Origin: Paenibacillus lemnae | Lineage (GTDB): Bacteria; Bacillota; Bacilli; Paenibacillales; Paenibacillaceae | Assembly (NCBI RefSeq): GCF_012933385.1 | Contig: NZ_JABBPN010000003.1 | Location: 1 to 64,000, forward strand | Length of the DNA: 64,000 nucleotides | Direction: 5' to 3' | Shown: in pieces, positions 21,308 to 32,944 of the stretch | How the letters are laid out: the number at the start of each line of letters is the position of its first letter | Numbering within the stretch: position 1 is the first letter of the stretch | Notes under the pieces: generated by a model | The model's input: the letters and a program-made list of their open reading frames with translations, nothing else | Told to the model about the DNA's origin: nothing | Databases searched by the model: none | Made by a program: the position numbers and the translations under genes

Positions 21308-24300
21308 ATGAAAAAGCAATTGTCAAGCCTGACCGGCATGATGCTGGTTTTTGCCGCGGCTACCTCAATTTTCATCTATGACTGGCTTCACTCCAGCACC
21401 AGCTATCCGGAGGCGCGTGAAGGCGTGCTCGACGTCAGGACATGGGACTTTTCGCAGCAGGGAATCATCCCGCTTCGTGGGGAGTGGGAGTTTTACAAGG
21501 ACCGCCTGCTGACACCCCAGGATTTTGCGGATCATGAAGATGAGCTGCAGGGAGAACGGCACTTTCTCCCGGTCCCGGGAGGATGGAACAAGACGGTGTC
21601 CGACAATGGGTATGGTGCGGGAACGTACCGGCTGCGCCTGCAGGTGAACGACCTTGATGATTACGGCCTCCGGGCTAAAAAGATCCGCATGTCGAGCCGG
21701 ATCTACATGGACGGGCAGGAACTTGGCAGTACCGGACAAACTGCCTTGTCTGCCGCCGGTTTTGTGCCGAGCAATGTGCCATTCTTCGGGAGGGCTGAGG
21801 TAAAAGAAAGGACGATCGACGTGATCGTTCAGGTGGCGAGCCACCGGTATTTGCCGGGAGGACTTGTACAGGCTCCCGAGTTCGGACTGACCGCTGATGT
21901 TATGAGCCGCCGGGACAACGCCCGGATGGCTGATGTGATTGTCATTACGACTTTGCTGGTATTTGGTATTTATTTTGCAGGCATGTTCAGGCAGTGGCGG
22001 CGAGAACCGTACCTGATTTTTTTCAGCTTGTTCTGTTTGGCGCTGGGGCTTTTCTTCAGCATAGATAACGAGATCGTGGTAGCGAATTTGATCCCCTCCA
22101 TGTCCTTTCTTTTACTGCAAAAGCTGCTGTTTATCCTGCCGTACCTGGCCATTATGTTCTTTATTTACTATGTGCGCCTTTATCTAAATGACAAGAGCGG
22201 ACCCTGGTTCAGGGCATTCCGATGGGTTTCTTATGTTTACCTGGCGCTGTTGGTCGTACTGCCCAATGGTTCTCTGCTGATCCTGTTGTGGCCAGGTGTG
22301 CTGCTGCAGATTGTAGCTTTCGGCTTTATCTTCACTTCGATTATTCGCAATCGGTATCATGGGGTGCGGATTTACTATATTTTGCTCGGCGTGTTTTTCT
22401 TGATTATCAGCTGGGTCTTCGCCCAGACGCGGTATCAGCTGGCACTGGATAGCCCTTATTACATTATCGTTACGCTGCTGCTGGTTGTACTGTCACAGTC
22501 ATTTCTGATGGCGGACCGGATTCACGGCGTTTACCAGCGGAGTGAACGTTTGGCTCAGCAGCTGCTGGTCCAAGACAGGCAGAAGGATGAATTTCTGGCC
22601 AAAACCTCGCATGAACTTCGCACGCCTCTTCACGGGATTATCAATCTCTCCGAGGCGCTGCTGGACAAGAAAGAGCCGCCCCTTGCCGCAGAGCATCGTG
22701 AGAACATCAGGCTGATGCATCTGATCGGAAGGCGGCTTGCCGGATTGGTGAATGACATCCTGGATATGAACCGGATACGGCACGGTCAGCTGGATGTGCA
22801 GCAGAAGCCGGTGGATCTTTATGTATCGACCCGTTTTGTGATGCAGACGTTATCGATCGCGCCGATCAAGCGGGATGTCAGGCTTGAAGAGAAGCTGCCT
22901 GCTGAGCTGCCCCTTGTGCTGGCAGACGAGAATCGGCTGCGGCAGATTTTGCACAACCTGCTCGAGAACGGGCTCAAGTATACCGACCAGGGGACGGTCT
23001 CGATCTCGGCTGAAAGACGTGGAGATTTGCTGGCCGTTTCGGTCAGTGACACGGGCAGGGGGATCCCGGCTGAAATCAGAGAGAAGCTGTTTCAGCCTTT
23101 CTTCCAGCATAACGAGGAAGGCTCCCGTTCGCGCGATGGCATCGGGCTGGGTCTGAGCATCTCCAAGCAGCTGGTTGAGCTGCAGGGCGGGCAGCTGGAG
23201 GTTGAATCCGAGGTTGGGCAGGGCTCCTGCTTCACCTTCACGCTGCCGATTGCCTGGAGCGGAGCGCAGGAGGCGGCCATTTCCACGGAAACAGCTCACG
23301 GTGACAAAAAAACAGAAGACGATACGTACGCGGAGTATGGAGACTTCACTTCGTATCAGCAGGATGTGTCGTCTCTGTCCGAGCTTTCTTCACTGTCCGG
23401 CGACCAGGAAGTGTTCCATATTCTGATTGTCGACGACGAGCCCTCCAATCTAAAGGTGGCTATGGATGCCATTGCCTCTATGGGACATACGTATACGACA
23501 GCAAGCGGCGGGGCAGAGGCACTTGAGGCACTCCGGAGAAGAAAGCCCGACCTCGTGCTGCTCGATTTGATGATGCCTGGCGTATCGGGGCTCGACATTT
23601 GCAGGGAAGTAAGGACGCTGGATGGACTGGCTGAACTTCCGGTGCTGATGCTGACCGCCTCGGGACAGACGTGCGATATCCTGGCTGCCTTTGCTGCAGG
23701 AGCCAACGATATTTTGCACAAGCCGTTTGAATTGGCAGAGCTTCGGGCCCGGGTGCAGTCGCTGCTGGTCATGAAAAGCTCATCAGAACGGGCAGTGCGG
23801 CGTGAGATGGATTTTTTGCAGGCACAGATTCAACCGCATTTTCTGTACAACAGCTTGAACGCCCTGGTCGGGCTCAGCTATAAGAATGTGGATAAGCTGC
23901 GGGAAACGATACATCATTTAACCACCTATCTTCGCGCCAAATTCAAGTTTGTCTTTCATGGAGATGAAATCCCGCTGGAACGTGAGCTGGAGCTGGTACG
24001 GTCCTATCTGGCCATTGAACAGCTTCGTTTCGGCCAGCGGCTGGCTGTCCATTATAATATTGATGAAGATGCACACTGCCTGCTGCCTCCGCTCACCCTT
24101 CAGCCCATTGTCGAGAATGCAGTCCGCCACGGGATCGGGCAAAAGCCTGAGGGAGGCAACGTGGACATCATCATTCGCCGCACAGACAAGGGCGTTATGA
24201 TTATTGTCGAAGATGACGGAGCTGGGATGGACGAAGAGACACGGAACCGGCTGGAACTAGGGAAGGCCGGAGGGGTTGGCATCGGCAACGTAAAGCGGCG

Positions 24301-24412
24301 GCTTCAAATGAGGTACGGGCGAGACCTCGAGATTTCCAGCCGTCCGGGCCAAGGAACCACAATCACCATGTATTTAACGGAGGGGCGTTATGTGGAGAGC
24401 CATTCTGATTGA
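21308..24412 (+). CDS. Hybrid 7TMR-DISM histidine kinase with two kinase modules
   Basis: A 1034-residue sensor. Order: N-terminal signal or anchor helix, outer DISM (jelly-roll, sugar-binding-like) domain to about 190, seven membrane helices (about 205-400), HisKA with ELRTPLHGI (phosphoacceptor His near 437), HATPase with DTGRGIP and GLGLSIS, a receiver domain (VDDEPSN near 705, phosphoacceptor Asp in LLDLMMPG), then a LytS-type His_kinase segment (QIQPHFLYNSLNAL near 838) and a second HATPase (VENAVRHG, EDDGAGM). Two separate phosphotransfer modules in one chain is rare but known in Paenibacillus. Its stop lies within the response-regulator gene (23-base overlap). The likely signal is an extracellular carbohydrate, given the domain and downstream genes. 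Confidence 0.9.
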   Translation: MKKQLSSLTGMMLVFAAATSIFIYDWLHSSTSYPEAREGVLDVRTWDFSQQGIIPLRGEWEFYKDRLLTPQDFADHEDELQGERHFLPVPGGWNKTVSDNGYGAGTYRLRLQVNDLDDYGLRAKKIRMSSRIYMDGQELGSTGQTALSAAGFVPSNVPFFGRAEVKERTIDVIVQVASHRYLPGGLVQAPEFGLTADVMSRRDNARMADVIVITTLLVFGIYFAGMFRQWRREPYLIFFSLFCLALGLFFSIDNEIVVANLIPSMSFLLLQKLLFILPYLAIMFFIYYVRLYLNDKSGPWFRAFRWVSYVYLALLVVLPNGSLLILLWPGVLLQIVAFGFIFTSIIRNRYHGVRIYYILLGVFFLIISWVFAQTRYQLALDSPYYIIVTLLLVVLSQSFLMADRIHGVYQRSERLAQQLLVQDRQKDEFLAKTSHELRTPLHGIINLSEALLDKKEPPLAAEHRENIRLMHLIGRRLAGLVNDILDMNRIRHGQLDVQQKPVDLYVSTRFVMQTLSIAPIKRDVRLEEKLPAELPLVLADENRLRQILHNLLENGLKYTDQGTVSISAERRGDLLAVSVSDTGRGIPAEIREKLFQPFFQHNEEGSRSRDGIGLGLSISKQLVELQGGQLEVESEVGQGSCFTFTLPIAWSGAQEAAISTETAHGDKKTEDDTYAEYGDFTSYQQDVSSLSELSSLSGDQEVFHILIVDDEPSNLKVAMDAIASMGHTYTTASGGAEALEALRRRKPDLVLLDLMMPGVSGLDICREVRTLDGLAELPVLMLTASGQTCDILAAFAAGANDILHKPFELAELRARVQSLLVMKSSSERAVRREMDFLQAQIQPHFLYNSLNALVGLSYKNVDKLRETIHHLTTYLRAKFKFVFHGDEIPLERELELVRSYLAIEQLRFGQRLAVHYNIDEDAHCLLPPLTLQPIVENAVRHGIGQKPEGGNVDIIIRRTDKGVMIIVEDDGAGMDEETRNRLELGKAGGVGIGNVKRRLQMRYGRDLEISSRPGQGTTITMYLTEGRYVESHSD

Positions 24413-25493
24413 TGACGAAGAGATCGCGCTGGACGTCATGGATATCATGCTCGGCGAGGTGGGCGGCGTGGAAGTGGCCGGCAGGTTTCAGCTGGTTGCT
24501 GAAGCGCTTGAACAATGTGCAGCCATTCAACCGGATTTAATCTTTCTGGATATCGAGATGCCTGGTGTGAGCGGGCTGGAAGCTGCAGGGATGTTATCTG
24601 AAAAATGTTCAGGTGCAGACATTGTTTTTGTCACGGCCCATGATCACTATGCCATTGATGCATACGACACCGACGCCATGGGGTACCTGCTTAAACCTGT
24701 CGCAAAAGACAAGCTGGCTTCAGTACTGTCTCGGTATGCAAACCGGCAGACCAGACAGACAAGCCGCGGAGGGAACGCTGCGAAAGTGAGCCACCTTCAT
24801 GCTGATGATTCGGCCGCGGCTGCAGATCGTCAGGAGGAACATCAACCATTAATGTCACTGAAAGTGCTGGGTAGTATGGAGCTGTATGCTCCGGATGGCC
24901 GGCTGTTAACATGGCGTACGAAGAAAACGAAGGAACTGTTCGCATTCCTGTGGCATCACCGGGGACAGCCGGTTTACAAATATGCCATTCTGGAGCATTT
25001 GTGGCGGGATGATGCAGCAGAGCGCGGTCAAAAGCTGCTGCATACTTCACTTTATTATTTACGGAGCCAGTTTAAGTCACTAGGCTTCGAGGGATTTGTG
25101 AAGTATGGTGACGAGCGGTACTGGGTGGATCCAACGGTCATTCGCAGCGACCTGGAAGAGCTCCTTGGTATGCTGAAAGAAGAAGAAGCGGCAGCGAATG
25201 CCGAGAGTATTCTTCAGATGTATGGCGGGGACTATTTGGAGATGGAGCATTACGAATGGGCGAATGCTTACCGGATGGAGCTCCGTTCGGCCGTGATGTC
25301 CAGCATGAATGCAGTCATCAGAGTGGTGCCTAAGGGACTTCGCGCACAGCTTCTATGGAAATTGATTGAGCTTGAGCCAAGCCATCTGCCCTACTATGAC
25401 TTGCTGGCGGACAGCTTGCAGCAGGCCGGTGATGAGGATGGCATCCGCCGGGTGATGGCGATGAAAGAGCAGATGGAGCTAAAGGGAGAATAG
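24390..25493 (+). CDS. Response regulator with BTAD/SARP-type output
   Basis: A 367-residue regulator. Residues 1-120 form a CheY-like receiver (DDEE near the start, Asp in FLDIEMPG around 54, Thr/Lys pattern intact). A poorly conserved linker follows, then an OmpR-like winged helix (SLKVLGSMELYAPDG onward, about 155-250) and a bacterial transcriptional activator domain of TPR-like helices to the end. Overlap with the kinase gene shows the two are made together and very likely form a pair. Plausible targets are the surface protein genes directly downstream, but no binding site could be identified. Confidence 0.9.
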   Translation: MWRAILIDDEEIALDVMDIMLGEVGGVEVAGRFQLVAEALEQCAAIQPDLIFLDIEMPGVSGLEAAGMLSEKCSGADIVFVTAHDHYAIDAYDTDAMGYLLKPVAKDKLASVLSRYANRQTRQTSRGGNAAKVSHLHADDSAAAADRQEEHQPLMSLKVLGSMELYAPDGRLLTWRTKKTKELFAFLWHHRGQPVYKYAILEHLWRDDAAERGQKLLHTSLYYLRSQFKSLGFEGFVKYGDERYWVDPTVIRSDLEELLGMLKEEEAAANAESILQMYGGDYLEMEHYEWANAYRMELRSAVMSSMNAVIRVVPKGLRAQLLWKLIELEPSHLPYYDLLADSLQQAGDEDGIRRVMAMKEQMELKGE

Positions 25494-25551: not shown

Positions 25552-25583
25552 AGTCTTCAGATGCAAATTTGAAGGCTTTTTTT
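25552..25583 (+). terminator. Terminator after the two-component genes
   Basis: Stem AGTCTTCA (25552-25559) with TGAAGGCT (25570-25577), one G-T pair, followed by seven T residues. Confidence 0.85.
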
Positions 25584-25701: not shown

Positions 25702-27396
25702 ATGAAAGCACAGAAGAGGAACAGCATGACTGGCAGGATGGTGACATCTATCATGATCTGTCTGGTTATGCTGCTAGGGTCGATTCTACCAACGCTGGCA
25801 GTTCCGGGACAGGCTTCGGCAGCCACAGAGTATGCTTGGAATTCGATTGATGGGGGAGGGCTCCAGGCGGGAACAAGCAGCGCTCCCACCTCTGGGGAAC
25901 CAAGTATTGTCTCTTGGAACAACCATTTATACGCAGCGTGGTCAGAGGCAAAGCCTTACAATTTTTCTTCAGAGCTGCAGGGAATGGAAATCAGAGTCAT
26001 GAAATGGGATGGCAGCCAGTGGTCTGCAGCTGATGGCGGAACCGGTCTGAATTATTATGGACACAGCAATGCAACCAATCCATCGCTTGCGGTATACCAA
26101 GGCTGTCTGTACGCCGCCTGGATAGAAGGTTACCCCTCACTTCTAGGGGATCAGAGTATCCACCAGATTATAGCCAAAAAAAATTGCGGAGACGAATGGG
26201 TGTCTACAATAGAGGATTATATCCCGGTAATCGGATCTGGTAGAGGGAAAAATCCAGTTCTTCTTGTCTATGACAACGCATTGTATGTGGCATGGCAGGG
26301 TGACTCGAACCAAACGCAGGACCAAAAAGTTCAAGTCATGAAGTATGACGGTAACGTTTGGAGTAGCGAAAAGTTAGATTTGAGATTCTTTGAAAATGGT
26401 GTAGTTGATAGACCGCGGCTCGCCATATATCAGAATGAACTTTATTTAACTTGGAGCGAGGAGGTGCCGGGCATTCAGTCCTCATCCCACATTCCAGTTT
26501 ATAAAAGAACGGTCAACGGAGGCGAAGTTACATGGGAAAACGTATCAGGAAATTTGGGAATTACGAATACAACGACATCTGCAGGAAGTTCGGTTCTACA
26601 AGCTTATAATGGCCTGCTGTACGCGGTATGGAGAGATAACAACCCCGCTCAGCTAAAAGTCAGCAGCTTCTATGGAAATACTTGGGGCCCTGTAGGCAGT
26701 GGGAATCTGGAGAAATTGGAAGAGGATGAATCGCAAAACCCGAATCTATTTGTATACAACGACAAGCTGTTTGCAGTTTGGAACGATCAAAATTCAAGCG
26801 GGATGGGTCGCAAAAACCGGGTCGAGTTTTATGACGGCAGAAATTGGAGTGCTGCGGGCGAGGGGCTGCCGAACTCCGTACGAGCCACATCGTATGCCTT
26901 GCACGACAACTTGGCGTATCTAGCCTGGTCTAATGGTTCGAAAATTCAAGTATACAGTCTTCAGGAGAATCCGGCACCGCAGCAGGTAACCGTAAGCTAC
27001 TTGCCAGGGGATCACGGCACAATCAGCAGTACGAGCGAGCAGGTAGTCCTTGGCGGACACCCGGCAGCAGTGCCGGTGGTTACGCCTAGTAATAAGTATC
27101 GATTTATAGGCTGGAGCAGTGATGGTGGTGTCACTAAGCTCAGCAGTCAAGAGGTAGCGAGCTTGGCAGTGACGGCGGATGTGACTTTTACCGCGTACTA
27201 CACGGCGTTTTTATTGGGGGACGCGGATGGCGACGGTAAAGTATCGTCTTCGGATGCACTGCTGCTGAACAAATTTATCAAAGGCAAGATTACACTGACG
27301 CAGGTGCAGCTGCAGGCGCTTGACATGAATAGTGATGGGCAATGGGACGAAGAGGACATCAAAGCGATCCTTGCCATATCCGTTGGAAAGGGTTGA
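25702..27396 (+). CDS. Secreted beta-propeller-like protein with a C-terminal type I dockerin
   Basis: A 564-residue exported protein with a signal peptide (cleavage near AAATEYA, about residues 39-41). Residues 45-430 repeat a pattern of W-(D/N)-G-x-W and L-Y-(A/V)-A-W, as in sialidase-like or fucose-lectin beta-propellers. A short InlB-type segment (about 433-502) follows, then a dockerin: two calcium loops (DADGDGKVSSSD and DMNSDGQWDEED, about 507-555). Dockerins dock to cohesins, and the next gene encodes cohesins, so this protein is probably held on the cell surface by it. AGAGAGGGTC precedes the ATG. Its stop is one base before the next gene's start. Confidence 0.85.
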   Translation: MKAQKRNSMTGRMVTSIMICLVMLLGSILPTLAVPGQASAATEYAWNSIDGGGLQAGTSSAPTSGEPSIVSWNNHLYAAWSEAKPYNFSSELQGMEIRVMKWDGSQWSAADGGTGLNYYGHSNATNPSLAVYQGCLYAAWIEGYPSLLGDQSIHQIIAKKNCGDEWVSTIEDYIPVIGSGRGKNPVLLVYDNALYVAWQGDSNQTQDQKVQVMKYDGNVWSSEKLDLRFFENGVVDRPRLAIYQNELYLTWSEEVPGIQSSSHIPVYKRTVNGGEVTWENVSGNLGITNTTTSAGSSVLQAYNGLLYAVWRDNNPAQLKVSSFYGNTWGPVGSGNLEKLEEDESQNPNLFVYNDKLFAVWNDQNSSGMGRKNRVEFYDGRNWSAAGEGLPNSVRATSYALHDNLAYLAWSNGSKIQVYSLQENPAPQQVTVSYLPGDHGTISSTSEQVVLGGHPAAVPVVTPSNKYRFIGWSSDGGVTKLSSQEVASLAVTADVTFTAYYTAFLLGDADGDGKVSSSDALLLNKFIKGKITLTQVQLQALDMNSDGQWDEEDIKAILAISVGKG

Positions 27397-27397
27397 T

Positions 27398-30300
27398 ATG
27401 ATGCGATTAAAGAAATGGATTTCGATCTTATTGGTGGTCATGCTGCTGATGCCTTTTGGCACGATGGGCTATGCGGAGCCGGGCGATAAGGAACTGAGGG
27501 TGGATCCAGATCATCTCTCTGTGGAGGATTCGTCCGATGCAGTACTCACCTCCGGCAAGGTAACGTTAGAGGAGGTGTTGTACACTGTAACTTTTAATTC
27601 ACAAGGAGGCAGTGAGGTAGCCGAAATCGCTGATGTAACCAGCGGCAAGACGATCAGCGAGCCGCCGGCACCGACGAAAGCAGGTTACACTTTCGAAGGC
27701 TGGTATACAGAAGCAGCAGGCCATGCCTGGGACTTTGAAGAGAATAAGGTGACGTCTGATCTGACGCTGTATGCGAATTGGACGCGCCATTCGGCAAAGA
27801 TTAAGATCGGCTCGGTAAGCGGGAGCCCAGGCACCGAGGTAAATGTACCGGTCACTGTGATCGAATCTACTTACGGCATCTCGGCATATAATCTTGTGAT
27901 TGATTTCGACGAAGAAACCCTAAAAATATTGGATGAAATTACAGACGATGACTTACAGTGGAATGTAAATAACGATGCAGGCAGCCTTGAGGCAGCTTGG
28001 TTTGATGCAGATGATGCACCGATGATGGAGGGGGACACTCTGTTCACGCTACCCTTCTTAATTAAGGAAGGTGCAGAGCTGGGCGATACGGCACTGACGG
28101 TGGATACGGATGACCTCTTTGTGTGGGATTCGTCAGCTGAAAAGATGGAGATCACGCTCATTCCAGGCAAGGTAACGGTGGCGCTGTACACCGTAACCTT
28201 TGATTCACAGGGAGGCAGTGCAGTGAAGGAAATTGCTGATGTGACCAGCGGCACGACGATCAACAAGCCGCAAGCACCGACGAAAGCAGGTTACACTTTC
28301 GAAGGCTGGTATACAGAAGCGGAAGAAGGAAGCCATGCCTGGGACTTTGAAGAAGATAAGGTGACGTCTGATCTGACGCTTTATGCGAAATGGACGCGCC
28401 ACTCGGCAGAGATTGAGATCGGCTCGGTGAGCGGGAAACCCGGTACCAAGGTAAGCGTACCGGTCACGGTGACCGAATCTACCTACGGCATCTCGAAATA
28501 TGATCTCCAGATTGATTTCGACGAAGAGAGTCTGGAAATATCGGGTATTACAGGCAATGACGATCGCTTTCAGTCGAATAAAAATAACGATGCAGGCTGG
28601 CTTGAGGCATTATGGAAAGATCACGCAGGAGACTCACCGATGGTAGAGGGTGACACGCTGTTCACGGTAACCTTCGACATTAAGGAAGATGCAGAGCCGG
28701 GCGATACGGCACTGACGGTGGATACGGATGACCTCTCTGTGTGGGATTGGTCAGCTGAAGAGATGGAGATCACGCTCATTCCAGGCAAGGTAACGGTGGA
28801 GGCCAAGCAGTACACCGTAGCCTTTGATTCACAAGGAGGCAGTGAGGTAGACGACATCGCTGATGTGACCAGCGGCACGACGATCAACAAGCCGCAAGCA
28901 CCAACGAAAGCGGGCTATACCTTCGAAGGCTGGTATACAGAAGCAGAAGAAGGAAGCCATGCCTGGGACTTTGAAGAAGATAAGGTGACGTCTGATCTGA
29001 CGCTGTACGCGAAATGGACGCGCCACTCGGCAGAGATTAAGATCGGCTCGGTGAGCGGGAAACCCGGTACCGAGGTGAGCGTACCGGTCACGGTGTACGC
29101 TTCCACCTACGGCATCTCGGCATATGATCTCCAGATTGATTTTGACAAGGATAGCCTGGAAGTATCAGGTGTTACAGGAAATTTGGAAACCTACTATGAT
29201 TCCCACTACGATAATCAAGCAGGCTGGATCAAGACATCGTGGATAGACAGCAACGCTGGCGATACGCCGATTATGGCGGGCGAGACGCTCTTTACGGTAA
29301 CCTTTATCATTAAAGATAATTCGAAACCGGGCGATAAAGCCCTGACAGTGCAGACGAGTGAACCGGGCCGGTTCTCTTTTACAGATGCCTTTAATGTGGA
29401 GATGAAGAAAACCTTGATCTCCGGTAAGGTAACAGTAGAGAACCCGGGAAATCCGAATCCACCAGTTACTCCAGGTAACCCAGGTACGCCGTCCGTACCA
29501 AGCAACCCAAGTACGCCTTCCGTTCCAAGCAATCCTGGTACGCCAAACACACCGGCACCTGTGAATCCTCCTGGCGGCCTCCAAGTCATCGTGAATGGCG
29601 TTGTGAAGGATCAGATTGCAGCGGGAGTGACGACGAATGAGAACGGCAAGTCTGTACTGACGGCTACAATCGACCCGGCTAAGCTGGCGGATCAGCTCAA
29701 TCAGTCGGCAGACAAGTCCAGAGTGGTTATCCCTGTAACTGCAAATGTCGACAAAGTAATGGTACTCTTGACGGGTGAGGCCGTGAAGGGGATGGAAAAC
29801 AAGCAGGCAGTGCTCGAGATCCAGACACCAATCGGTACCTACAAGCTGCCTGCAGGACAAATTGCCATCGACAATATTTCTTCCAAGCTGGGCGAACAGG
29901 TCAAGCTTTCGGACATTGTCGTTCATGTGGAAATTACCAAGAGCGGCGAAGCTGCAGAGATTCTTGCAAGAGCTGCGGCAGCTCAAGGAAGCTTTGAGGT
30001 TGCGGCTCCGCCAGTCACCTTTAATGTAACGGCTTCCTACAATGGCAGCACAGTCAGTGTCGATCAGTTCAGCAGCTACGTGGAGCGTGAAATCCCACTT
30101 CCTGCGGGCCTTGACCACAGTAAAGTGACAACGGCTGCTGTACTGAATAGTGATGGCAGCGTACGTCATGTCCCTACTTATATTACGACCCGCAATGGCA
30201 ATCATTTTGCGGTTGTGAACAGCCTCACGAACAGCGACTATTTCCTCATATGGAATCCGAAAACATTTGCAGATGTAGAGGGCCATTGGTCGAAGCAGGC

Positions 30301-30835
30301 TGTCAATGATATGGCTTCTCGCATGATTGTCAAAGGCATGAACGAGAACCAATACAATCCGAATGCCGTAATTACGCGTGCAGAGCTCGCAGCCATCGTA
30401 GTACGGGCTTTGGGATTGGAAGAAAACAGCAGCAGTGCCAGCTTCAGCGATGTCAAACCGGGAGATTGGTATGCAGGCGCTGTCGGCAAGGCTGCAGAAT
30501 ACGGTTTAATTGAAGGCTACGATAACGGAACCTTCGCTCCGAATCGTACCATTACCCGTCAGGAAGCGCTGGTCATTATGGCCCGTGCAATGAAGGAGGC
30601 AAACCTTCAGGCTGACGAGGTGAATGCAGATTCCGTACTGTCTCCGTTTGCAGACCAGGCGCAGGTCGCTCCATGGGCGAAGCCAGCCATGGCTGCAGCT
30701 GTAAAGTTTGGACTTGTGCAAGGATCGAATAAAGGCTTGATGCCGGCTGGAAACTTGACCCGCGCTGAAACTGCAGCAATTGTACAGCGGTTTTTGATGA
30801 AAGCCAGTCTGATCGATAACGGAAACAACAACTAG
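27398..30835 (+). CDS. Cohesin-bearing S-layer-anchored surface scaffold
   Basis: About 1145 residues from the ATG at 27398 (GGAAAGGG upstream; a frame start at 27332 is unlikely). Order: signal peptide, a truncated cohesin end, then three copies of InlB-type repeat plus cohesin domain, a Pro/Thr/Asn linker, a roughly 200-residue strand-rich region and three SLH domains (starting near 945) that bind secondary cell-wall polymer. Cohesins hold dockerin proteins, so this is a scaffoldin-like protein with three receptor sites, translated directly after a dockerin protein. The array lies in near-identical DNA repeats and the first cohesin lacks its N-terminal part, showing past contraction. No cellulase modules are seen, so the cargo is not necessarily enzymatic. 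Confidence 0.85.
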   Translation: MMRLKKWISILLVVMLLMPFGTMGYAEPGDKELRVDPDHLSVEDSSDAVLTSGKVTLEEVLYTVTFNSQGGSEVAEIADVTSGKTISEPPAPTKAGYTFEGWYTEAAGHAWDFEENKVTSDLTLYANWTRHSAKIKIGSVSGSPGTEVNVPVTVIESTYGISAYNLVIDFDEETLKILDEITDDDLQWNVNNDAGSLEAAWFDADDAPMMEGDTLFTLPFLIKEGAELGDTALTVDTDDLFVWDSSAEKMEITLIPGKVTVALYTVTFDSQGGSAVKEIADVTSGTTINKPQAPTKAGYTFEGWYTEAEEGSHAWDFEEDKVTSDLTLYAKWTRHSAEIEIGSVSGKPGTKVSVPVTVTESTYGISKYDLQIDFDEESLEISGITGNDDRFQSNKNNDAGWLEALWKDHAGDSPMVEGDTLFTVTFDIKEDAEPGDTALTVDTDDLSVWDWSAEEMEITLIPGKVTVEAKQYTVAFDSQGGSEVDDIADVTSGTTINKPQAPTKAGYTFEGWYTEAEEGSHAWDFEEDKVTSDLTLYAKWTRHSAEIKIGSVSGKPGTEVSVPVTVYASTYGISAYDLQIDFDKDSLEVSGVTGNLETYYDSHYDNQAGWIKTSWIDSNAGDTPIMAGETLFTVTFIIKDNSKPGDKALTVQTSEPGRFSFTDAFNVEMKKTLISGKVTVENPGNPNPPVTPGNPGTPSVPSNPSTPSVPSNPGTPNTPAPVNPPGGLQVIVNGVVKDQIAAGVTTNENGKSVLTATIDPAKLADQLNQSADKSRVVIPVTANVDKVMVLLTGEAVKGMENKQAVLEIQTPIGTYKLPAGQIAIDNISSKLGEQVKLSDIVVHVEITKSGEAAEILARAAAAQGSFEVAAPPVTFNVTASYNGSTVSVDQFSSYVEREIPLPAGLDHSKVTTAAVLNSDGSVRHVPTYITTRNGNHFAVVNSLTNSDYFLIWNPKTFADVEGHWSKQAVNDMASRMIVKGMNENQYNPNAVITRAELAAIVVRALGLEENSSSASFSDVKPGDWYAGAVGKAAEYGLIEGYDNGTFAPNRTITRQEALVIMARAMKEANLQADEVNADSVLSPFADQAQVAPWAKPAMAAAVKFGLVQGSNKGLMPAGNLTRAETAAIVQRFLMKASLIDNGNNN
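27575..29440 (+). repeat. Three tandem InlB-plus-cohesin units of about 0.6 kb
   Basis: Units begin near 27585, 28190 and 28810; each starts with a (F/N)-SQGGS segment and ends in an (I/L)-x-GKVTVE segment. The first two junctions share long near-identical DNA such as GCAGGTTACACTTTCGAAGG, so unequal crossover can change the copy number. Confidence 0.85.
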
Positions 30836-30865: not shown

Positions 30866-30916
30866 AAAAAACCAGCTTCCTTTCCCTTTCGCAGGGTGAG
30901 GGAAGCTGGTTTGTTT
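30866..30916. terminator. Bidirectional terminator between convergent genes
   Basis: AAACCAGCTTCC (near 30869-30880) pairs with GGAAGCTGGTTT (30901-30912), with a second inner stem (CCCT/AGGG). A-runs lie on one side and T-runs on the other, so it can end transcription from both directions. Confidence 0.85.
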
Positions 30917-32727
30917 TATATGGAGACGCAATACCGATCACGCCCCGCCTGCTTCGCCTGATACAAGGCCAGATCGGCAGCCTCTATAAGCTCGTCAATC
31001 TTGTCGCTGTCTCCTGTCTTCATTGCTGCAAACCCGAAACTCACTGTAATGAAGCCCGATGCTCCAGGAGCCTCATGAGGAATGCGTATGGCGCGAACTT
31101 CTTTTATAATACGCTCTGCCAGATGCTCGGCGGACTCACGATCTCCCCTATACAGCAAGCAAAACTCCTCGCCCCCGTACCGATATACGCTGCCGCCTGC
31201 CGCTGACGCTGTTCTGTCAATTATTTCGGCCACACGTCTGAGGCAATCATCACCGGCTAGATGTCCGTAATAATCGTTAAATTTTTTAAAATGATCGATA
31301 TCAATCAGGTATAAATAGAGGGGAGCGTCTCTTTCCTTTTCCTCCAGCATCTCTTGAGCGTCTGCTTCAAATGCCCTCCGATTTGCAATACCCGTCAGCC
31401 CATCCAGAAGAGACTGCTTCTGCAGCTCTTGATTTGCTTCTTCAAGTTTTGCTGTGCGTTCAGCAACCTTCTCCTCCAGCGTATTGTTTAAAGCCTGCAG
31501 TTTGAATGTGAGATTTTCTGTAGAAGCGTACGCCCGCGAAAAGCTAAGGCCCAGAACAAAAGAATTTGCAAGCACGTACACCAGCAGGCCCAGCGGAATG
31601 TAATAACCCGTCATCAGCAAGTGCCGATTGTACAATACATCATTAAGGACCGTCGCGGCCAAGAAAATGGCGGCTGCCAGCGCAAGCGCAGCTCCTTCCT
31701 TCTTCCGCCAAGCGGCCAGCGCAAAAGCAATCACGCATGATATCGTTACAAACACAATAACCAGCTGATACACCGGCAGCAGTTTCATGTAGAGCCAGCC
31801 GGGAGCCGCCACGCACAGCAAGCCGTAAAGGACAGACAAGGCAAGCACGGGTCTTAGAATCCATCTGCTTAATTCCTCAGGATATAAGGATCTGACGAAC
31901 ATCGAGAAAGAGATGACAGCAATGGCCATAGTCGTGTACTCAATACGTACTGCGGTATCCCAAGGAAAGTCAGGAAGCAGGACGTAAAGCGAGGTCTTCC
32001 CTGTAACCAGATTTCGAAGAGATATGGAGATACAGAATATTGAAAAATAGAATGGAGAGAGTTTTTTGCTCCGCGCCGAAAACAATCCCAAATGATAAAG
32101 CCCGATGATGAACAGAGCACCTATAACGAACATATCCAGCGAGGAAGAACGAACCATCTCAGCCTGCAGAGCAGCTGCGTAACCGAGCCGGATGCTCTCC
32201 GTCAAGCCACCGCGAGGATGATCGTAGTTCGCCACATGGATAACAATATCAAGCGTCTTGGACGGCTCCGGAATTAGAAACAGCCTGTCACGTCTTGATG
32301 GCTTGGCTTCTGCTTTATTGTCTGCGATCCGGCCGTTTTCTCCGAGCAGTTTGCCATTAATCCAAATTTTATAGGAATTCGATACATTTTTAATGTATAA
32401 TCCTAAATTCTCGTGTTTTTCTCCTAGCATCACCTGAAGGCGATAAGAACCATAACCGTGTCTTGTAGATTCGCCCTCATTCCATAGGCCTGGAACCTTG
32501 AGGCTGCGGCCTGGTTGTTCTTGACGGTCACCAGAAGGATCTATGAGCTGCTCCCAATAAAATGTCCAATCTCCATCTAAATCAACGGGATGTACGGGAT
32601 CCTCCAGAATGTAGAAAATGCCATCGGCCGCCTTGGGAGACGACGATAGCTCACTAGCCATAACGGGAGTACAGAATATGGTCAGGAGTATTACCTGCAC
32701 TAGGAGTCGAATGAGTAAGCTGCGCAT
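30916..32727 (-). CDS. 7TMR-DISM diguanylate cyclase (GGDEF)
   Basis: About 603 residues from the ATG at 32727, which follows GGAAGGGG; an upstream in-frame ATG at 32814 is unlikely. Signal peptide, DISM outer domain to about 190, seven membrane helices (roughly 200-395), a coiled coil (about 400-440) and a GGDEF domain with an intact GGEEF active site near 517. It should make cyclic-di-GMP in response to an extracellular ligand. Its outer domain resembles that of the hybrid kinase 10 kb away (W-x-FY... and G-YRLR motifs), so the two may read related signals. Convergent with the surface scaffold gene. Confidence 0.85.
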   Translation of the reverse strand: MRSLLIRLLVQVILLTIFCTPVMASELSSSPKAADGIFYILEDPVHPVDLDGDWTFYWEQLIDPSGDRQEQPGRSLKVPGLWNEGESTRHGYGSYRLQVMLGEKHENLGLYIKNVSNSYKIWINGKLLGENGRIADNKAEAKPSRRDRLFLIPEPSKTLDIVIHVANYDHPRGGLTESIRLGYAAALQAEMVRSSSLDMFVIGALFIIGLYHLGLFSARSKKLSPFYFSIFCISISLRNLVTGKTSLYVLLPDFPWDTAVRIEYTTMAIAVISFSMFVRSLYPEELSRWILRPVLALSVLYGLLCVAAPGWLYMKLLPVYQLVIVFVTISCVIAFALAAWRKKEGAALALAAAIFLAATVLNDVLYNRHLLMTGYYIPLGLLVYVLANSFVLGLSFSRAYASTENLTFKLQALNNTLEEKVAERTAKLEEANQELQKQSLLDGLTGIANRRAFEADAQEMLEEKERDAPLYLYLIDIDHFKKFNDYYGHLAGDDCLRRVAEIIDRTASAAGGSVYRYGGEEFCLLYRGDRESAEHLAERIIKEVRAIRIPHEAPGASGFITVSFGFAAMKTGDSDKIDELIEAADLALYQAKQAGRDRYCVSI

Positions 32728-32944
32728 AGGTGAAACCCCTTCCAAAATTGTATCGAATGTGTGAGTTGATAGGTAATTAAATTCGACATCTAGTTCTTTT
32801 TTCCCTCCCTGCATATATCTGAAATTATGGCCCGAGGTTCTGCCTTCGGTTTTCTTAGAGTTATGCTCTCATCTGGGTTATAATATAAACGTTTCATATT
32901 TCAAAATAAGGACTTGTCCTGATTTCTATAGAGAGGTTTTTGAT

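Follow-up and report, generated by a model that had tools for sequence, protein, structure and literature searches.

Two adjacent genes on the forward strand of the window, a 64,000-nucleotide stretch of the Paenibacillus lemnae genome (contig NZ_JABBPN010000003.1, positions 1 to 64,000), encode a beta-propeller protein that ends in a dockerin and a scaffold protein that carries cohesins and S-layer homology (SLH) domains. We consider it likely that this pair is a plug-in cassette for surface display, in which the cohesin-dockerin contact takes, without covalent linkage, the place that a peptide bond has in related loci, and in which the propeller most likely binds a glycan. The most telling evidence is found in relatives, where related propellers and their wall anchors are made as one chain. 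The two genes have the following features.

25702-27396, forward strand: cargo gene, with signal peptide (judged by eye), propeller, Flg_new_2 repeat and dockerin, from the list of open reading frames (ORFs), Pfam and a structure model
25825-26973, forward strand: propeller, here called head A, with seven blade motifs in the sequence and a structural match to 7esl
26989-27207, forward strand: Flg_new_2 (InlB B-repeat-like) spacer, Pfam E = 4.8e-8
27214-27363, forward strand: type I dockerin with two calcium loops, Pfam E = 3e-10, 44.9 bits in the genome search
27398-30835, forward strand: scaffold/anchor gene, with three Flg_new-cohesin units, linker, pre-SLH domain and three SLH domains
27434-27571, forward strand: possible C-terminal remnant of a lost first cohesin, a weak match (positions 87-131, E = 2e-4) to a profile made from the scaffold's own cohesins
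27797-28180, forward strand: cohesin unit 1, 44 bits
28409-28798, forward strand: cohesin unit 2, 64.6 bits
29033-29437, forward strand: cohesin unit 3, 66 bits, with a structure model
29576-30265, forward strand: pre-SLH domain, common in Paenibacillaceae surface proteins, from sequence matches across the family
30266-30832, forward strand: three SLH domains forming the wall anchor, Pfam E = 6.1e-36

The cargo ORF is intact and encodes 564 amino acids. A preliminary description made from the sequence alone recognized a C-terminal dockerin with two calcium loops, and this assignment stands: the Pfam dockerin family (PF00404) matches residues 505 to 554 with 40.6 bits, compared with a cut-off of 22.9, and two 12-residue calcium loops can be read straight from the sequence. 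The scaffold follows as described, its frame being open from 27332 and its ATG at 27398 lying one base past the cargo stop codon (27394-27396); this gene is also intact. It was predicted to be a wall-anchored protein with three cohesin-like domains, in agreement with matches to Pfam cohesin (PF00963, E = 4.1e-43, 147 bits in total) and SLH that each fall in three stretches, and it contains three Flg_new repeats as well. With its SLH domains and a signal peptide judged by eye, it has the features of an SLH-anchored surface protein. Structural comparison with known cohesins had been set beforehand as the test for a different fold, and the third Flg-cohesin unit proved to be a cohesin. Its model (mean predicted local distance difference test score, pLDDT, 82.7) matches 6kgc_A, a Clostridium acetobutylicum cohesin, with Z 19.7 and a root-mean-square deviation (rmsd) of 1.8 over 137 residues, and all 50 of the 50 listed matches are, by title, cohesins, cohesin/scaffoldin complexes or a C. 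perfringens interaction module. In two solved complexes, 6kgc and 4uyp, one partner is matched by the P. lemnae cohesin and the other by the dockerin, although a serine-protease record (8x39) ranks first among the PDB matches of the dockerin.

The cargo was also described as a beta-propeller rather than a cellulase, and this is borne out by its seven blades (seven LYxxW-type repeats), by its AlphaFold model (mean pLDDT 66), whose first 384 residues match propellers in a structure search, and by a Pfam scan up to E = 1 in which no enzyme domain matched the cargo. The closest structures include 7esl, a rhamnose-glucuronate lyase of family PL42 (Z 28.2, rmsd 3.5 over 345 residues, 12% identity), the glycoside hydrolase 5mum (Z 27.8) and LGI1 (Z 26.9). 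Since these matches are only 12-14% identical, they support the propeller fold and not a function. An extracellular glycan is the most likely ligand, judging from fold and context. A plasmid origin of the cargo was considered and rejected, as tblastn against 72,556 plasmid records gave a single weak match (68% covered, 29.7% identity).

Related loci can be recognized by the sensor kinase gene upstream of the pair. We surveyed the best 46 kinase matches listed for Paenibacillaceae (P. lemnae included, at least 47% identity), assigning domains with profiles built from members of this analysis, most of them confirmed by Pfam, rather than with Pfam itself. Split pairs with a dockerin and a cohesin are present at 12 of the 46 loci: in P. 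lemnae, in ten others with head A or with a second propeller type, head B, and in G041 (G and L numbers are our working handles for genomes and loci). At 17 loci, the profiles detect one-chain SLH proteins without dockerin or cohesin, of which five carry head A, five head B and one a weak head B; among the other six, the two read by eye contain what resemble an NHL-type (G036) and an RCC1-type (G239) propeller. In G352 and G129, Pfam lists fn3, SbsC_C and SLH behind the head and neither dockerin nor cohesin, and the dockerin-bearing cargo of G166 (P. cellulositrophicus) still holds fn3 and SbsC_C. Five loci are outside these layout counts, owing to a run of Ns within the one-chain gene (G125), head and SLH in overlapping ORFs (G206, G369), a contig end (G148) or an unclear arrangement (G238). 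The listed kinase relatives are 71-85% identical beside head-A and head-B split cassettes and 68-72% identical beside one-chain SLH genes. Heads A and B are each found with either mode of anchoring, which is the strongest ground for proposing that the cohesin-dockerin contact joins head to anchor.

Split cassettes with head A (seven) or head B (five) and a similar dockerin were found at 12 loci in Paenibacillaceae, P. lemnae included. A search with head A alone through 394 genomes, scoring up to four candidates in each, detected seven cargo genes at E < 1e-200, that of P. lemnae and those of six of the 393 other genomes, among them Paenibacillus sp. XY044, P. cellulositrophicus, P. dokdonensis and P. 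dendrobii. Weaker full-length matches (E ~1e-87 to 1e-104) are one-chain proteins. The next gene encodes a cohesin/SLH scaffold in all seven cargo loci, and because the query was the head alone, the pairing of cargo and scaffold is more than chance. Genes flanking the head-A cassettes mostly differ between relatives. Kinase and regulator genes lie beside the pair in five of the six head-A relatives, the exception being G120 (L091:7488-9059), whose cargo also lacks a signal-peptide stretch while dockerin and scaffold are kept; given what is missing there, this cassette may be decayed. A tRNA-dihydrouridine-synthase-like gene downstream of the G120 cassette is common to the P. lemnae locus.

The head-B loci (G115, G090, G040, G292 and G277) resemble the head-A cassettes in their kinase, regulator, dockerin and scaffold. 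Head B contains repeats of the form FVAVG..TS.DG..W, and no significant BLAST match to head A was obtained in the two tested (G115 and G040, best E 0.32). The dockerin nevertheless stays similar under these exchanged heads, with 72-80% identity to that of P. lemnae in nine other cassettes compared, whether of head A or head B; in a more distant pair, in G198, identity is 46%. From this conservation and the genomic context, the P. lemnae dockerin would be expected to bind the P. lemnae cohesins.

In other adjoining pairs, too, the dockerin protein is non-enzymatic and its neighbour is a cohesin/SLH anchor. The dockerin proteins have GLUG repeats in G198 and Big_5 repeats in G184, G225 and G170. 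Loci of this kind, with GLUG repeats or with Big_5-like repeats and an N-terminal dockerin, are L066, L068, L069, L070 and L127. The L127 pair is that of G041 and sits at a related kinase locus; its cargo, read by eye, resembles Big_5-type proteins and has an N-terminal dockerin. In G111 (L117:15751-17101), a gene for a dockerin protein is divergent to a related kinase gene, and by its coordinates the frame seemingly continues into two cohesins.

The search of the genome for further dockerin genes that the preliminary description called for yielded one more, in an SLH-anchored amidase, so two Pfam dockerins were found in the P. lemnae genome. G090 and G277 also have two each. The cargo dockerin is the sole Pfam dockerin found in six of the 12 cassette genomes (G166, G208, G212, G115, G120 and G292), the counts for G166, G208 and G212 being among the matches listed. 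A single dockerin that fits three similar cohesins points to multiple copies of the same protein rather than to a multi-enzyme complex, and the pair, which is conserved, looks dedicated. The amidase (contig 11, L009:6219-8981) is a single chain that unites three SLH domains with a dockerin and a weak cohesin, which makes an internal cohesin-dockerin contact possible, and by eye the loop pattern of its dockerin differs from that of the cargo. A second, enzyme-type cohesin locus of the P. lemnae genome is located on contig 44 (L010:6480-13602), where a rhamnogalacturonan lyase/esterase with a cohesin, a FIVAR-like part and a degenerate dockerin-like tail, which is below detection, adjoins a 344-amino-acid cohesin/SLH protein.

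The cohesins of the scaffolds differ in conservation. Among nine related scaffolds, the first cohesin has diverged, with 31-38% identity to the P. lemnae units, and the second is 50-65% identical to them. The three P. lemnae cohesins are all of the second type and mutually 51-75% identical; the G277 scaffold also has three. By sequence, the P. lemnae scaffold seems to have lost the older cohesin and triplicated the newer one, and it could hold the same head in as many as three copies.

Genes and signals upstream of the pair suggest how it might be controlled; the preliminary description of the pair makes no mention of the two-component genes among them.

21308-24412, forward strand: hybrid sensor kinase with 7TMR-DISM sensor, HisKA, HATPase, receiver and second His_kinase domains (Pfam)
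24390-25493, forward strand: response regulator with a receiver and a winged-helix-like C-terminus (Pfam), overlapping the kinase gene
25552-25577, forward strand: terminator-like hairpin and T run between the regulator and cargo genes, a consensus match

The response regulator matches Response_reg (E = 6e-20) and, under the family's cut-off, Trans_reg_C (E = 2e-4). The terminator-like site is a consensus match only, with one found compared with a mean of 0.2 in shuffled sequences, and because it separates regulator from cargo, the pair probably forms its own transcription unit. No such site was found directly after the scaffold gene. Facing the cassette from downstream is a gene for a 7TMR-DISM/GGDEF protein (30916-32814, reverse strand), a second 7TMR-DISM sensor near the kinase; by eye, the cassettes of the first five relatives examined showed no such neighbour.

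SLH domains bind a wall polymer in Paenibacillus SLH proteins, and the scaffold would be fixed to the wall in this way. The adjoining kinase probably controls the pair: it would sense a cue, and the regulator would turn the two genes on. Cargo and scaffold would both be secreted, as their signal peptides, judged by eye, indicate. The C-terminal dockerin of the propeller protein could then plug into the scaffold cohesins, in at most three copies, so that propellers would point outward and bind their ligand, most likely a glycan. A broader proposal is that cohesin and dockerin stand in interchangeably for a peptide bond in a kinase-linked display system of Paenibacillaceae, with dissimilar heads on a near-constant plug, repeated switching between modes and a valency set by cohesin number. 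For this we see about equal grounds for acceptance and for doubt.

The history of the anchoring mode does not reduce to one event, and this is among several points that weigh against a simple form of the display proposal. In a first kinase tree of 14 rows, the nine split loci then known formed one clade with 100/100 support, but that result was withdrawn, because larger trees (47 rows, quick; 23 rows, careful) place four NHL-type one-chain loci among the split ones. A single clade for 11 split loci is rejected in the 23-row tree (approximately unbiased test, p-AU 0.0015), and the G041 kinase falls elsewhere in the 47-row tree. A single origin of the split layout was therefore abandoned, and anchoring mode and head type each appear, from these sequences, to have changed more than once, unless genes recombined. 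Nor do the two genes seem to be the product of plainly cutting a one-chain propeller-SLH protein. The pre-SLH domain is common (a 229-amino-acid piece of it is matched in 127 of 148 genomes), and although it is 75-87% identical to that of head-A cassette scaffolds, it is no closer to head-A one-chain proteins (42-44% in G125, G352 and G129) than to SLH proteins elsewhere (58-63% among the matches listed, in G012, G145, G031, G093 and G043, with G145 the highest at 63%).

Further points of this kind concern sampling and specificity. Scaffold or kinase similarity served to find the head-B loci, which partly preselects their layout, and the kinase search scored at most two candidates per genome. 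The kinase need not control surface proteins of this kind, since no SLH gene was seen adjacent to it at 12 of the 46 loci. The dockerin region of the cargo model is poor (pLDDT ~25-56 in blocks of ten over the last third), and the dockerin call accordingly rests on sequence. P. lemnae has its second dockerin in a genome that is 92% complete, and many dockerins occur in G160 (at least 11) and G161 (at least 10), both among the matches listed, and in G040 (28), where the scaffolds might also take enzymes.

The pair could alternatively be a small cellulosome-like enzyme complex, with dockerin-bearing enzymes recruited to the scaffold and the propeller acting in catalysis or substrate targeting. 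The head fold does resemble PL42, GH145 and PL25 propeller enzymes, although for PL42 and GH145 (Z 28.2 and 27.8, 12-13% identity) this is a comparison at the level of the fold, and enzyme-loaded cohesin/dockerin clusters exist in Paenibacillus, both among the genomes examined here and in the published P. guangzhouensis study (PMC11557425). However, no Pfam enzyme domain is shown in the scaffold any more than in the cargo, and no histidine is invariant across six aligned heads; a catalytic propeller, raised by the fold matches, was for these reasons set aside and kept at low probability. In addition, the only other Pfam dockerin found in the P. lemnae genome belongs to an amidase with its own SLH domains and weak cohesin, and six cassette genomes have no further dockerin that we could find. 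An enzyme complex is therefore improbable. The term "mini-cellulosome" used in the preliminary description is likewise too strong: the scaffold has several cohesins, as in a cellulosome, but instead of several different dockerin-bearing wall-degrading enzymes the 92%-complete genome yielded the two Pfam dockerins of cargo and amidase, and the search turned up no enzyme that this scaffold would carry.

Cohesin-like folds may act as simple spacers, and the cohesins here could be plain immunoglobulin-like stalk repeats that are not partners of the dockerin, which would bind something else. The divergent first cohesin of the relatives fits this idea, yet we regard it as very unlikely, because the 12 split loci have both dockerin and cohesin whereas the 17 one-chain loci yielded neither, and because the dockerin is preserved when heads are exchanged. 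The propeller might also be a co-receptor that presents its ligand to the adjoining 7TMR-DISM kinase, so that display would serve signalling rather than adhesion or capture. Of the 12 head-A and head-B split loci, 11 have the kinase and regulator genes next to the display genes, and one-chain SLH genes also have them as neighbours; ordinary regulation, however, fits this layout equally well. G120 retains the pair without the kinase genes, its cargo also lacking the signal-peptide stretch, and the kinase loci that lack a surface gene of this kind argue in the same direction. A co-receptor role is thus doubtful, and surface display through the cohesin-dockerin contact is the explanation we prefer.

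A display cassette of this type resembles known systems in part. Like clostridial cellulosomes, it has type I-like cohesins and dockerin and an SLH-anchored multi-cohesin scaffold, but it differs in having no enzyme cargo that we found, one fitting dockerin, adjoining kinase genes and interchangeable propeller heads. No Pfam cellulose-binding family is listed on the scaffold up to E = 1, in a scan that a divergent module could escape. In C. perfringens, cohesin (X82) and FIVAR-dockerin modules join secreted glycoside hydrolases, and the structures 2jh2, 2w1n and 2vo8 from this species are among the matches of the third cohesin unit. These modules similarly function outside cellulose digestion, whereas in P. 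lemnae the contact would link a propeller to a wall anchor. The one-chain SLH propeller proteins (G352, G129, G234, G372 and others) share related heads, a wall anchor and a related kinase with the cassette, and differ in their covalent fusion and in having no cohesin or dockerin that was found.

The closest published relative in surface organization is from the same genus. P. guangzhouensis has cohesin/SLH anchors and many cohesins, mostly with cohesin and dockerin on one chain and in many cases with an enzyme (PMC11557425), whereas the P. lemnae cargo is a non-enzymatic propeller with a dockerin only and a dedicated adjoining scaffold. Clusters of large proteins in G053 (L075, L076; ~32 kb) and G160 (L077-L079; ~43 kb) are similar to proteins published for P. 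guangzhouensis. Those of G053 are partly glycan-active (GH101, GH20, GH2 with FIVAR, sialidase), and five of the seven scanned G053 proteins have both a cohesin and a dockerin. The two clusters also contain a 241-amino-acid protein that is hardly more than a cohesin and a dockerin, and a 337-amino-acid cohesin/SLH anchor; their proteins could be strung head to tail, starting at the wall. In the literature covered, judged mostly by titles and with few subscription journals, we found no description of a dedicated, kinase-linked display of a non-enzymatic propeller through cohesin and dockerin. The P. lemnae pair is a non-cellulosomal use of this contact in a new form, in a genus where enzyme-loaded cohesin/dockerin/SLH systems are already published.

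With one dockerin type, three cohesins and an adjoining kinase, the pair is a small testable system. It raises the question of why a plug is used in place of a peptide bond, whether for head exchange, for several copies or for release. If the proposal is true, cohesin and dockerin would be a general connector for surface receptors instead of enzymes, and the one-chain versions would be natural built-in controls.

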